From: Acidimicrobiaceae bacterium
GTDB lineage: Bacteria > Actinomycetota > Acidimicrobiia > Acidimicrobiales > RAAP-2
Direction: 5' to 3'
Assembly: GCA_003152015.1 (NCBI GenBank)
Contig: PLZF01000105.1
Span: forward strand, 1 to 64,000
Length of the DNA: 64,000 nt
Numbering within the stretch: the stretch's first letter is position 1; each line of letters opens with the position of its first letter. The position numbers were made by a program, and so were the translations under genes. Shown here in pieces: positions 10,704-41,644 of this stretch. The notes beneath the pieces are model-generated. The model worked only from the letters and a program-made list of their open reading frames with translations. It was not told the origin of the DNA and did no database searches.

Positions 10704-11573
10704 ATGCGCATTCTGGTGACAAACGACGACGGCGTGTTCGCACCGGGCATCGCCGCACTGGCCAGGGGCCTGGCCGCCGCCTTCGAGGACGAGCACGAAC
10801 TGATCGTGGTGGCGCCCCTCGTCGACCACAGCGGGGCCGGAGCCGCGGTCGGACCGGTCTACGAGCGGGAGTCGATCCCTTACGAGGCTGTGCAAGTCCC
10901 CGGGCTCGAACGAGTCCCCATCTACGGCATCGACGGCCCTCCGGCACTGGCCGTGATTCTGGCCTGCATCGAAGGCTTCGGCGACCGCCCCGACCTCATC
11001 GTGTCGGGGATCAACCATGGCATCAATGTAGGACGCTCGGCGCTCCATTCGGGCACCGTCGGGGCTACCCTCACCGGGGCGCAGTTCGGAATACGCGGGT
11101 TGGCGGTCAGCATCGCCTGGGGCACCGACCCGGTGCCGTGGGAGACGCCGGTGGCACTGGTGAACGAGGTGGTACCCGAGTTGGCCACCATGGTTCCGGG
11201 TACCGTGATGAACCTGAACGTCCCCGCCCTCCCCCTCGGGCAGCTCCGCGGTATCCGCCACGGGTCCCTCGGGTCGGTCGGACTGATCCGGTCCGCCCGC
11301 CAGGACCGTGCCGGTGCACCCTTGGACGACACCGCCATAGACAGGACCGGCGGGGCGATCACGCTCACCCTCCGAGGAGGCCGTGGTTCCAATCGAGCTG
11401 AGGAGCTGTCCGAATTGGACCCGGCCTCCGACATCGGGGTGATCTCCGATGGATGGGCTTCGCTGACTCCGTTGGTCGGGGTGAGGGAGGATGTGTCGAA
11501 CGACGGGGCTGACGCAGTGGCCAAAACCCTGGCCGCCGTCTCGTCCCGGTTGCTTCGACCATCGGTTGGCTGA
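10704..11573 (+). CDS. surE: 5'/3'-nucleotidase SurE
   Basis: The 289-residue protein starts MRILVTNDDGVFAPGI, where the paired Asp residues bind the divalent metal. It then has SGINHGINVGRSALHSGTVGAT, the second family signature. SurE removes phosphate from nucleoside monophosphates and is associated with stationary-phase survival. The size is slightly above the E. coli enzyme because of a longer C-terminal extension. The gene stands alone on the plus strand, divergent from the aldose epimerase and followed by a 440-base gene-free stretch. Confidence 0.93.
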   Translation: MRILVTNDDGVFAPGIAALARGLAAAFEDEHELIVVAPLVDHSGAGAAVGPVYERESIPYEAVQVPGLERVPIYGIDGPPALAVILACIEGFGDRPDLIVSGINHGINVGRSALHSGTVGATLTGAQFGIRGLAVSIAWGTDPVPWETPVALVNEVVPELATMVPGTVMNLNVPALPLGQLRGIRHGSLGSVGLIRSARQDRAGAPLDDTAIDRTGGAITLTLRGGRGSNRAEELSELDPASDIGVISDGWASLTPLVGVREDVSNDGADAVAKTLAAVSSRLLRPSVG

Positions 11574-12014
11574 CGGCCCCGAAGGCAGGCTGAGCTGCAC
11601 CCCCACTGACCACGTTGAGCACTGATAACACTACGCTTCGTAACGTAATTGCAACAATGTGACTCTGTCCGGTAGTGTGGCCGAACTCGCTCAGCCATTG
11701 GCAGACGGCGGTGATGCGGCAGCACAGAAGCTGGCGACTGAACCACACGAGGGTCGGCTCAAGCCGTTGACCACCTGTGTCGAGAACCTATGAACATCAC
11801 GTTCTACAACCGACTGCGCCGACCAGGAGCCGCCCCACGCTGACCTGACAAGGGTTACCCCGTCTGCACCTCGTACGGACCTCATTGAAAGTCCCGAGCC
11901 GTCTGCCCTCCCCGGCACCAGTTCGCGAGTCGAATGCACTCAAGACGGTTGCCCGCATTCCCATGCCACCCTCGAAGCCCTACGGGCTTCCGCGACTTTG
12001 AGGAGGCGCAAGAT
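11574..12014. other. Gene-free 441-bp region between surE and rpf
   Basis: No frame here has the codon pattern or homology of a real gene. The region is locally AT-richer around 11630-11665, where TTGCAA (11649) and TAGTGT (11673) are 18 bases apart and could be a weak promoter for rpf. A short stem-loop lies just upstream of the rpf ribosome binding site. The long leader (up to ~340 nt) suggests post-transcriptional control of rpf, but no known riboswitch could be matched by eye. Confidence 0.4.
11974..11990 (+). promoter_or_regulatory. Leader hairpin upstream of rpf
   Basis: GAAGCCC-TAC-GGGCTTC is a perfect 7-bp stem with a 3-nt loop. It ends 10 bases before the AGGAGG ribosome binding site of rpf (12001). 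Flanking CCTC and GAGG could extend it and partly cover the binding site. A role in translation control is inferred from position only. Confidence 0.3.
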
Positions 12015-12638
12015 ATGCGCAAGCACCGCTTTTTCTTATTGATTACTGCATTCCTGGCAATACTTGGTGTTGCCCTCTATCAATCAACTTCATCACAGGC
12101 GGCTGCCGGGAATTCCGCGGCTGTCCTGGGTTCACAGCTGGCTGCCGACAGCCTGTCGGGGAACCAAAACGGGTTCAACTCCGTTCCCGGCTCGGCCGAT
12201 GGCCCGATGGGTGGGCTCGATATCGCCCTGGCCTCGCTGCACCTTCCGGCGCCCGTAGCGGCTCCGGCGGTTGCCAGCGTCCCCGCCGCACCTACCACCA
12301 CAACCGCCGCACCGGCTCCGGCTCCGGTCGCCACTCCGGCACCGACCCCGGCTCCACCGGCAGCGGGGGCACAGCCAGCCGCGTCGGGTTATGCCCCTGC
12401 CTCCGGCGATTGGGCTCACCTCCGACAATGTGAGTCGGGCGGTAACTACAGCGAGAACAGTGGCAACGGCTACTACGGCGCCTACCAGTTCTCTCTCGAG
12501 ACGTGGCAGGGCCTGGGGTATTCGGGGCTTCCCAGTGATGCCGCGCCTGCCGTTCAGGATCAGGCCGCCCAGCAACTTCAGGCTCGCAGCGGATGGGGCC
12601 AGTGGCCGTCATGTTCGAGGCAACTCGGGCTGAGCTAG
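12015..12638 (+). CDS. rpf: Resuscitation-promoting factor (Rpf), secreted transglycosylase-like protein
   Basis: The ATG at 12015 has a perfect AGGAGG at 12001-12006. The 207-residue product has a signal peptide (FFLLITAFLAILGVALY) and a long Pro/Ala/Thr-rich linker (residues ~75-130). It ends in a ~75-residue Rpf domain starting GDWAHLRQCESGGNY, where the Glu of CESGG is the catalytic residue, followed by GYYGAYQFSLETWQGLG. Rpf proteins cleave peptidoglycan glycan strands and help dormant cells resume growth. No LysM or G5 domain is present. A hairpin overlaps the stop codon. Similar proteins are confined to Actinobacteria, which supports the taxonomic reading. Confidence 0.93.
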   Translation: MRKHRFFLLITAFLAILGVALYQSTSSQAAAGNSAAVLGSQLAADSLSGNQNGFNSVPGSADGPMGGLDIALASLHLPAPVAAPAVASVPAAPTTTTAAPAPAPVATPAPTPAPPAAGAQPAASGYAPASGDWAHLRQCESGGNYSENSGNGYYGAYQFSLETWQGLGYSGLPSDAAPAVQDQAAQQLQARSGWGQWPSCSRQLGLS

Positions 12639-12656
12639 CCGGATCTAGCCCGAGTT
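12622..12656 (+). terminator. Stem-loop overlapping the rpf stop codon
   Basis: AACTCGGGCT (12622-12631) pairs perfectly with AGCCCGAGTT (12647-12656) around a 15-nt loop that includes the rpf stop codon. An overlapping second pairing, CCGGAT (12639) with ATCCGG (12657), is also possible. There is no T-run, so this would be a weak intrinsic terminator or an mRNA-stabilising 3' hairpin. Confidence 0.45.
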
Positions 12657-12698
12657 ATCCGGACCAGGAGCGTAAGACTTGGCTCCGAGGACCAGACG

Positions 12699-12739
12699 CG
12701 CCAGGCTTTCGGGGATGGACAATTCCCGAAAGCCTGGCG
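12699..12739 (+). repeat. Perfect 15-bp inverted repeat with the nucleosidase ATG in its loop
   Basis: CGCCAGGCTTTCGGG (12699-12713) and its exact reverse complement (12725-12739) flank an 11-nt loop (12714-12724). The loop holds the likely ATG start at 12715. In mRNA the arms would form a strong hairpin covering the ribosome binding region and the first codons. It could gate translation or terminate rpf read-through, or the true start may be the GTG at 12739. Confidence 0.7.
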
Positions 12740-13443
12740 TGATCGCCTTCGTATGCGCCATGCCGATGGAATTGCGCCCCCTGGTCCGGAAGTTGTCGCT
12801 CCACAAGTCCCAGATCGGCGACCTCCGGGTTCGCGCCGGAACTCTTGGGGGACACCAGCTTGTCGCCATCGTGACGGGAATGGGCACCCAGTTGGCGAAG
12901 ACCGAGACGGGCCGTTTCCTCGACGCGGTCGGCGTTCAACGAGTAGTCGTGGTCGGGATCACAGGAGCGGTGGACAACACGACACCCATCGGGACACTCG
13001 TTCTCCCCGAAGTCGTTGTAGACAGCGTGAGCGGCGTCGAATACCGTCCAGCACCGTTCGGCGGCGGCTCGCCGCACGGCAAGATGTGGACGACCGATCT
13101 GCTCCTGACCGACACAGACGAGGTCGCCGGTCTGCGGGCGAGGGGGGTCGTCTCATTCGATATGGAAACGGCCGCGGTCGCCGAAGTCTGTGAGGGGCGC
13201 GGCATCCCGTGGTCAGTGTTCCGGGCCATCAGTGATCGAGCCACCGACGGGAGCATCGACGAGGAGATCTTTCATCTCAGCCACCGAGACGGGACTCCCA
13301 ACGGACCCGCGGTTGCCCGGTACCTCCTGAGGCACCCGGCGCGCATCCCTCGCATGGTCCGTCTCGGTCGAGGGGCGACACGTGCCGCCGAAACCGCCGC
13401 CGCAGCCGCCGCCGCCGCGGTTCGAGCCTGCTCCCAGCCCTAG
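12715..13443 (+). CDS. Nucleoside phosphorylase / MTA-SAH nucleosidase family protein
   Basis: This 242-residue protein has the PNP/UDP phosphorylase fold. VIAFVCAMPMELRPLVRKL forms the first strand and helix, AIVTGMGTQLAKTETGRFLD and VVVVGITGAVDN make the nucleoside-binding loops, and SFDMETAAVAEVC is the diagnostic Met-Glu motif contacting ribose. FRAISDRATD follows. Family members split purine nucleosides or S-adenosylhomocysteine/methylthioadenosine; the substrate cannot be chosen here. The C-terminus ends in an Ala-rich tail. The start could be ATG 12715 or GTG 12739, because a 15-bp inverted repeat surrounds the ATG. The gene is convergent with the hydrolase at 13478. Confidence 0.8.
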   Translation: MDNSRKPGVIAFVCAMPMELRPLVRKLSLHKSQIGDLRVRAGTLGGHQLVAIVTGMGTQLAKTETGRFLDAVGVQRVVVVGITGAVDNTTPIGTLVLPEVVVDSVSGVEYRPAPFGGGSPHGKMWTTDLLLTDTDEVAGLRARGVVSFDMETAAVAEVCEGRGIPWSVFRAISDRATDGSIDEEIFHLSHRDGTPNGPAVARYLLRHPARIPRMVRLGRGATRAAETAAAAAAAAVRACSQP

Positions 13444-13477
13444 CCGCAGCCGGCCATCACCCTCTGGCCGACGCAGT

Positions 13478-14716
13478 TCAGGCGAATCGTTCGTCCAGCC
13501 AATCGAAGACGACCTGGGCCAGCAGCCTGATGTTGTCGGATTGACAATGGGTCGACGCCCCATCGTCCGCGTTGAATCGACGGGTGCTGACCTGACCCGG
13601 CAGGGCGCCGACAAAGGCATCGAACTGGGAGAGAGGCTCGTTACCCTCACGGTCCCCGATGAGGGCGAGCACCGGGCAGGTGATCGCCCCGACCAGGTCG
13701 CCGAGTCGGTACTCGGTGATGGCGTCCCGCCAGGCGGAGAACGACGGCACGCCGAAACGACGGCAGATGGACTCGATCCCCCACTGCATCTGCTTGGGCA
13801 TCAGGTCCTCGGGAACACCCAGTACGTCTTCGGGTCGGATGTCCCGAGACATCCCGAAGACGTCGCTTCCCACCCACGCCTCCATGTAGCGGCGCATATC
13901 GATGACCGGCGGATTGGCCACCAATGCCCGTACCCGGGGATCGGTGGCGGCACTGCGGGCGGCGAAGCACGAGCCGAAGCTTTGGCCGACCAGGGCCACC
14001 CGGCCGGGATCCACGTCGTCACGGGCACAGATCACATCGAGCACCGCGGCCAGGGGAGCCTCGTAGTCTGGGCGGAAGGGCAATGCCGGGTTGAGACGCA
14101 TGCAGCCCGGTTGTCCCGGGCCATCGAAGGCAAACACGTTCCACCCCCGCTCCACCCCCGGGGCCCCGTAGTGGAAGTAGAGCTCTTCCGCACTGGAGTC
14201 GAAGCCGCCGACGCACACCAGGGTGGGAAGCCGCCCGGGATCAGCCGCCACCGTCGCACGTGGACGCAGAAAGTAACCGGGCAGCATGGATCCGTCGAAC
14301 GGCACGTCGACCAGTTCCAACGGCGGCACAAACAGTGATCCGGCCTCGGTGAAGCATTCCCGACTCCGTGCTCCGGTGTGACGGGACGCCTCGGTGGCCG
14401 GGTCCACGTAGTACTCGGCCGTCCGGTAGTAGGTCGACGCTCGCAACAGGTGATCGCGCCCGCTCACCCAGTGGCCGGCCGCAAGACAGGTTCGAGCTGT
14501 CGCCTCCACCCGATGGGCCAACTCGTCAAAACACCGGGCCCAACTCTGTGGGCTGCCGTCGGTGATCTCGGCCGCCACCGCTAGGCACTCCCCTATCGTC
14601 GAGCCGCCGTAGTCGGCTACTCCCAACGTCTTGATCAACTGGTAGTCGAACTCGTCGTCGCGGAAGCCTTCCACCCGGATCGCGCTGCGGACAATGTCTG
14701 AGTCTCCGAAGGACAC
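13478..14716 (-). CDS. Alpha/beta hydrolase (FrsA / pseudooxynicotine hydrolase-like)
   Basis: The 412-residue protein, read from a GTG at 14716, has a ~130-residue helical N-terminal region followed by an alpha/beta-hydrolase core. VCVGGFDSSAEELYFHYG forms the oxyanion segment, FAFDGPGQPGC follows strand 4, and VALVGQSFGSCFAARSA is the nucleophile elbow with Ser in GQSFGS. LALIGDREGNEPL supplies the acidic residue and GASTHCQSDN the His. Similar proteins with a helical lid hydrolyse C-C or ester bonds (2,6-dihydroxypseudooxynicotine hydrolase type) or act as FrsA-like esterases. The substrate is unknown. No clear ribosome binding site marks the start. Confidence 0.8.
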   Translation of the reverse strand: MSFGDSDIVRSAIRVEGFRDDEFDYQLIKTLGVADYGGSTIGECLAVAAEITDGSPQSWARCFDELAHRVEATARTCLAAGHWVSGRDHLLRASTYYRTAEYYVDPATEASRHTGARSRECFTEAGSLFVPPLELVDVPFDGSMLPGYFLRPRATVAADPGRLPTLVCVGGFDSSAEELYFHYGAPGVERGWNVFAFDGPGQPGCMRLNPALPFRPDYEAPLAAVLDVICARDDVDPGRVALVGQSFGSCFAARSAATDPRVRALVANPPVIDMRRYMEAWVGSDVFGMSRDIRPEDVLGVPEDLMPKQMQWGIESICRRFGVPSFSAWRDAITEYRLGDLVGAITCPVLALIGDREGNEPLSQFDAFVGALPGQVSTRRFNADDGASTHCQSDNIRLLAQVVFDWLDERFA

Positions 14717-41553: not shown

Positions 41554-41644
41554 GAGCGGGGCGACCGGCCCCGGCCACCACCCCAGATCTCCAGATCGCC
41601 GCCATCCGGATTCGGGTGGCGGCGATCTGCGTGAACCACCCGGT

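Follow-up and report, generated by a model that had tools for sequence, protein, structure and literature searches.

A perfect hairpin over the start codon of a nucleosidase gene: a candidate rpf 3'-end element without a U-tract

A perfect 15-bp inverted repeat lies shortly beyond the stop codon of an rpf gene and contains the start region of the next gene, a nucleosidase, and we give roughly an even chance to the reading that it is a 3'-end hairpin of rpf that has no U-tract and overlaps the start of its neighbour. The repeat itself is real and far beyond chance. One 15-nt arm, CGCCAGGCTTTCGGG (12699-12713), is the exact reverse complement of the other, CCCGAAAGCCTGGCG (12725-12739), and the 11-nt loop between them, GATGGACAATT (12714-12724), holds the ATG of the nucleosidase frame (12715-12717), just as an earlier note on this DNA had described. 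It is the longest perfect stem with a loop of 3-20 nt in the window (i.e. the whole stretch of 64,000 nucleotides that was analysed), the runner-up being 13 bp long, at 41592-41629. Stems of at least 12 bp were absent from six order-1 Markov sequences, each of window length, and for stems of at least 15 bp the base composition predicts 0.003 per 64 kb, or about 0.04 per 819 kb.

Structure and setting of the repeat

In the predicted RNA the helix gains pairs on both sides, giving 20 pairs and a further two beyond a one-base bulge. The fold energy is -41.1 kcal/mol, which in a comparison with 200 shuffles corresponds to a z of -9.8. The outer bases of the loop pair in this fold, which leaves GGACA as a 5-nt unpaired loop. 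The stem occupies the region 61-101 nt beyond the rpf stop; ATG 12715 is placed near the tip of the hairpin and GTG 12739 at its foot, so that both codons lie within it. The features of the region are as follows, where G000 is this genome and G001 and G002 are two others of the genus.

11934 to 12638, + strand: rpf, longest frame, with a resuscitation-promoting-factor-type transglycosylase domain (PF06737)
12622 to 12656, + strand: a further, weaker hairpin across the rpf stop codon, with a stem of 10 bp and a loop of 15 nt
12666 to 12681, + strand: AGGAG (12666-12670), changed in G001 and G002, and then the in-frame TTG 12679, whose frame is broken in G002
12699 to 12713, + strand: left arm, exact complement of the right arm; non-coding if ATG 12715 is the start; 1-nt deletion in G002
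12714 to 12724, + strand: loop, 11 nt in the perfect repeat
12715 to 12717, + strand: ATG, the likelier nucleosidase start; kept in G000, G001 and G002
12715 to 13443, + strand: nucleosidase of the phosphorylase superfamily (PNP_UDP_1, PF01048), by profile match
12725 to 12739, + strand: right arm; within codons 4-9 of the nucleosidase if the start is ATG 12715
12739 to 12741, + strand: GTG, alternative start overlapping the last base of the right arm; the codon reads GCC in G002 and GTG in two mycobacterial loci

The likely real start of rpf is ATG 12015, which stands behind AGGAGG (12001-12006). The best NCBIfam matches of the nucleosidase are HpnG and MTA/SAH nucleosidase, both below their cut-offs; HpnG (hopanoid-associated phosphorylase) is the top match, yet it falls far under its cut-off. 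Relatives with at least 54% identity and a named record belong to Acidimicrobiales or Mycobacterium, and the nearest is in the Acidimicrobiaceae MAG palsa_655 (93% protein identity). Between G000 and G002 the protein is under purifying selection (dN 0.038, dS 0.102, ratio 0.37). The second hairpin keeps its stem in G002 with a loop 10 nt shorter (-26.1 kcal/mol), and in G001 two of its pairs read as G-U by eye; the G001 fold starts inside its left arm and is not comparable with that of G002.

ATG 12715 appears likelier than GTG 12739 as the nucleosidase start because it is kept in the three genomes with the locus and because an in-frame start codon stands exactly at this codon in 8 of the 19 loci compared (the window's own and that of G002 included), the presence of a start codon at a position not being the same as its use. 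Besides these two, the matching start codons come from four loci at 49-73% identity and two at about 41%, and one further locus has a start codon one codon away. The comparison took in 19 of 44 loci (12 of 30 and 7 of 14), with the more distant loci set aside, as well as L056, which duplicates G002; the starts of L031 and L064 are uncertain, as their alignments begin at residues 30 and 26. In favour of GTG 12739, both Mycobacterium loci have a GTG at this codon, which in one of them is the first possible start owing to a stop three codons before it, and a simple hexamer gene caller also picked it in the window.

The earlier note had stated that ATG 12715 is the only ATG of the gene. This is correct, but another in-frame start exists upstream of GTG 12739, namely TTG 12679. 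We rejected TTG 12679 because its AGGAG is altered in both G001 and G002 and because the left-arm deletion breaks its frame in G002, whereas the frame from ATG 12715 is open to the end in G002 despite that deletion. The remark that such perfection is unusual in a coding region applies to the right arm alone if the ATG is the start, since the left arm is then non-coding.

Hairpins at gene ends across the genome

We surveyed the window and 38 other stretches of the genome, together 818,593 bases (23% of the genome) with 752 genes, for perfect stems of at least 12 bp with loops of 3-20 nt; genes were called with a simple hexamer caller, which gives rough starts. The 28 stems found were densest in gaps between convergent genes (8 in 18.1 kb, 0.44 per kb), followed by codirectional gaps (8 in 60.0 kb, 0.13 per kb), divergent gaps (2 in 35.7 kb, 0.056 per kb) and called coding sequence (10 in 695.7 kb, 0.014 per kb). 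The convergent excess holds against all sequence (P 1e-7) and among gaps (P 0.004), whereas codirectional gaps exceed the density of all sequence (P 0.0007) but do not stand out among gaps. Each of the 8 convergent-gap hairpins is centred no more than 115 nt from a stop, and 7 of the 8 codirectional-gap hairpins are centred 29-80 nt beyond the upstream stop, the rpf hairpin at 80; it thus shares the placement of the genome's other gene-end hairpins. A first survey, of 424 kb with longest-frame genes, also found convergent gaps to be densest (4 in 8.7 kb), the other classes giving 2 in 24.9 kb, 1 in 10.7 kb and, for coding sequence, 4 in 316 kb; the rpf hairpin, lying near the called nucleosidase start, was counted in no class there. 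Stems of at least 15 bp numbered 7 in the 819 kb against the 0.04 expected, and long perfect hairpins are therefore over-represented in this genome, with the rpf hairpin among them.

A run of four T was found in none of the 18 gap hairpins within the 8 bases 3' of the stem, considering the + strand side only. Two of three other hairpins with an examined G001 or G002 match could be aligned across the stem. In the L101/L135 and L104/L136 hairpins pairing is kept in G001 by double (compensatory) changes, read by eye, and each has one unpaired change in G002. The genome is thus characterised by hairpins at gene ends that lack a T-run, and there is some sign that their pairing is kept. The rpf hairpin is the only one of the 18 with a called start inside its span, called starts being rough.

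Several individual hairpins deserve mention. The 13-bp one at 41592-41629 in the window lies between convergent genes. The closest look-alikes of the rpf hairpin in the sampled genome are perfect hairpins between codirectional genes at L123:6301-6339 (17 bp) and L126:2117-2149 (15 bp), whose centres are 54 and 80 nt beyond the stop and 46 and 24 nt ahead of the next called start. The genus match of the L123 hairpin ends short of it, and the L126 hairpin has no match in G001 or G002.

The suggestion in the earlier note that a mobile palindrome would recur in the genome was followed by searching for the arm. In the genome, which is 94% complete, the exact arm matched the two arms alone, and with up to 2 mismatches there were 24 hits, arms included, against 16 for a reversed control. 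A mobile repeat was rejected on these counts.

Related genomes and competing explanations

Among four other genomes of the genus that were searched, the rpf-nucleosidase locus was seen in G001 and G002; no nucleosidase was found in G003 or G004, which are 87% and 64% complete, the G003 contig stopping 153 nt after rpf. In G001 both arms are unchanged, an outer G-U pair has become A-U and the loop has one change; the hairpin is perfect, with 17 Watson-Crick pairs. The G001 nucleosidase is a pseudogene that carries two 1-nt deletions and has lost about 590 nt flanked by short direct repeats (L003:232-400). In G002 the hairpin has one bulge, one G-C changed to G-U, one outer G-U changed to G-C and one outer pair lost, and its predicted fold is weaker (-31.8 kcal/mol). 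The arms in G002 differ at 2 of 30 positions, which is no lower than the overall divergence of 7%. So small a number of changes is no proof of selection on pairing, and persistence of the hairpin in G001 is weak evidence, so few changes being expected. At the nucleosidase start of 17 loci outside the genus we found no stem of more than 8 bp (loop 3-20), so that among the loci compared the hairpin, and with it a start inside a stem, is found only in the three genomes of this genus. Conservation of the arms in relatives, whose absence was one of the two refuting conditions in the earlier note, is seen inside the genus but not in these 17 loci outside it, on which a regulatory hairpin common to the whole order was rejected.

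The sequence around the rpf stop was compared in 19 of 20 rpf loci and L003, with L067 dropped because it carries the opposite end of the G001 gene that L003 already represents. The 17 best-scoring loci outside the three genomes included one without downstream sequence, leaving 16. Three of these have a perfect 12-14-bp stem starting 24-69 nt past the rpf stop. In the remaining 13, which include the locus of G003, a member of the same genus, no perfect stem of at least 9 bp occurs between 30 nt upstream and 110 nt downstream of the stop.

On the reading to which we give an even chance, the long GC-rich stem would end rpf transcripts without a U-tract or, alternatively, would mark and protect rpf 3' ends following Rho-type termination. 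It would be one of a set of hairpins that this genome carries past stop codons, with the nucleosidase so near rpf that its start codon falls inside. On transcripts that read through from rpf, a stem of about -41 kcal/mol would then enclose the nucleosidase start, and translation would be poor. The analysis shows the sequence, the predicted fold, the position, the presence in three genomes of the genus and where like hairpins lie in 23% of the genome; termination or 3'-end protection and the hiding of the start are inferred. The rpf-end reading is the best supported because like hairpins in the genome lie mostly past stop codons and because the hairpin stays perfect in G001 despite the broken nucleosidase there; a stable GC-rich stem (-41.1 kcal/mol) does begin 61 nt past the stop codon. 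The compensatory changes in two other hairpins and the stems behind 3 of 16 other rpf genes also speak for it. The reading is weakened by the 13 of 16 rpf loci without a stem, G003 of the same genus included, and by the bulge, lost pair and weaker fold in G002, with only three genomes seen to have the locus. The earlier note had coupled the ending of rpf transcripts to a start at GTG 12739; the first half of this option gains support from the survey and from G001, and the second half is not favoured, since the codon is GCC in G002 and the ATG is kept in three genomes, the two mycobacterial GTGs and the choice of the gene caller notwithstanding.

The hairpin is not a classical intrinsic terminator. 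There is no T-run directly after the stem, which is followed by TGATCGCCTTCG, and a terminator scan of 11560-13560 found no classical terminator. Reported in vitro experiments have been taken to show that the polymerase of mycobacteria requires a U-tract; this and the missing T-run also weigh against the 3'-end reading.

A different role for the hairpin, and the first option of the earlier note, would be control of nucleosidase translation, with the hairpin keeping the start closed until some signal opens it. A stem of -41 kcal/mol with the ATG near its tip and the GTG at its foot would suit such a switch, as would the standing of this hairpin as the sole one of 18 gap hairpins with a (rough) called start in its span and the retention of the ATG and most pairs in G002. 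However, control of the nucleosidase is disfavoured because the hairpin is perfect where the gene is dead (G001) and damaged where it is intact (G002), and the option has no comparative support. The 17 loci outside the genus have no stem of more than 8 bp at the start, and no Rfam match came near a gathering score; the two matches obtained (E 0.58 and 0.86) were far under theirs, and a known RNA family was set aside. We consider a switch of this kind unlikely.

We also regard as improbable that the hairpin is a functionless by-product of template switching during replication, in which the right, coding arm would have been copied upstream as its reverse complement. Such switching can yield a perfect hairpin in one event (PMC8794818), and the hairpins treated there resemble this one as perfect, close inverted repeats in one lineage only. 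In favour of it, the left arm is outside coding sequence if the ATG is the start, the repeat is found only in the genus and the G002 copy is imperfect. However, the event cannot be reconstructed here, no alignable relative without the repeat having been found, and switching would not explain why like hairpins lie mostly past stop codons, or the compensatory changes in two other hairpins, although it can also restore pairing. Switching may also have given rise to a hairpin that was subsequently retained, and to that extent overlaps with the rpf 3'-end reading. Finally, a DNA dyad operator for a regulator of the nucleosidase, suggested by a palindromic site across the gene start, is very improbable indeed, as the exact arms are not repeated elsewhere in the genome, 15 exact pairs with an 11-nt spacer exceed what a dyad site usually needs and no sigma-70-type promoter was found nearby.

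Known relatives of the element and its meaning

Gene-end hairpins without U-tracts are a known kind of element; the placement of this one over the start of the next gene is unusual. In PMC8355165, which deals with such U-tract-less (I-shaped) terminators, 98% of the sites identified correctly are no more than 80 nt from the stop. Of 535 structured 3' ends mapped in Streptomyces clavuligerus, 353 lack U; the authors (PMC8269248) suggest that these are I-shaped terminators or ends of Rho-terminated transcripts, and they quote a loop of 4-8 nt as optimal for E. coli. The rpf hairpin resembles these elements in having a long GC-rich stem and no U-tract shortly past a stop, and by position and predicted structure it fits the I-shaped class. 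It differs from that class in overlapping the start codon of the next gene and in its loop of 11 nt rather than 4-8 nt (5 nt should the additional RNA pairs form). In our view the start lies inside the hairpin because a gene-end element here overlaps a gene that follows closely.

Hairpins that sequester start codons form on outside transcripts of the IS10 and IS50 transposase genes and in the replicase operator of phage MS2. The rpf hairpin would likewise hide a start codon on a read-through transcript; unlike them, it carries no sign of selection for start hiding and is kept where the gene is dead. A literature search on start-hiding hairpins and impinging transcription gave nothing useful. 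If the hairpin terminates efficiently, the nucleosidase needs a promoter of its own; a scan of 11560-13560 for sigma-70 promoters found none. A stronger version, that one element does two jobs by closing rpf transcripts and locking the nucleosidase start on those that read through, seems to us quite unlikely. If true, only a short-leader or leaderless transcript of its own would yield the nucleosidase, and the hairpin would be a chromosomal insulator like those of insertion sequences.

The locus is a clean case in which to ask how transcripts end without U-tracts in GC-rich actinobacteria that have been little studied, and what follows when a 3'-end element overlaps the next gene. It is also a warning for annotation, as a probable 3'-end element encloses the nucleosidase start.
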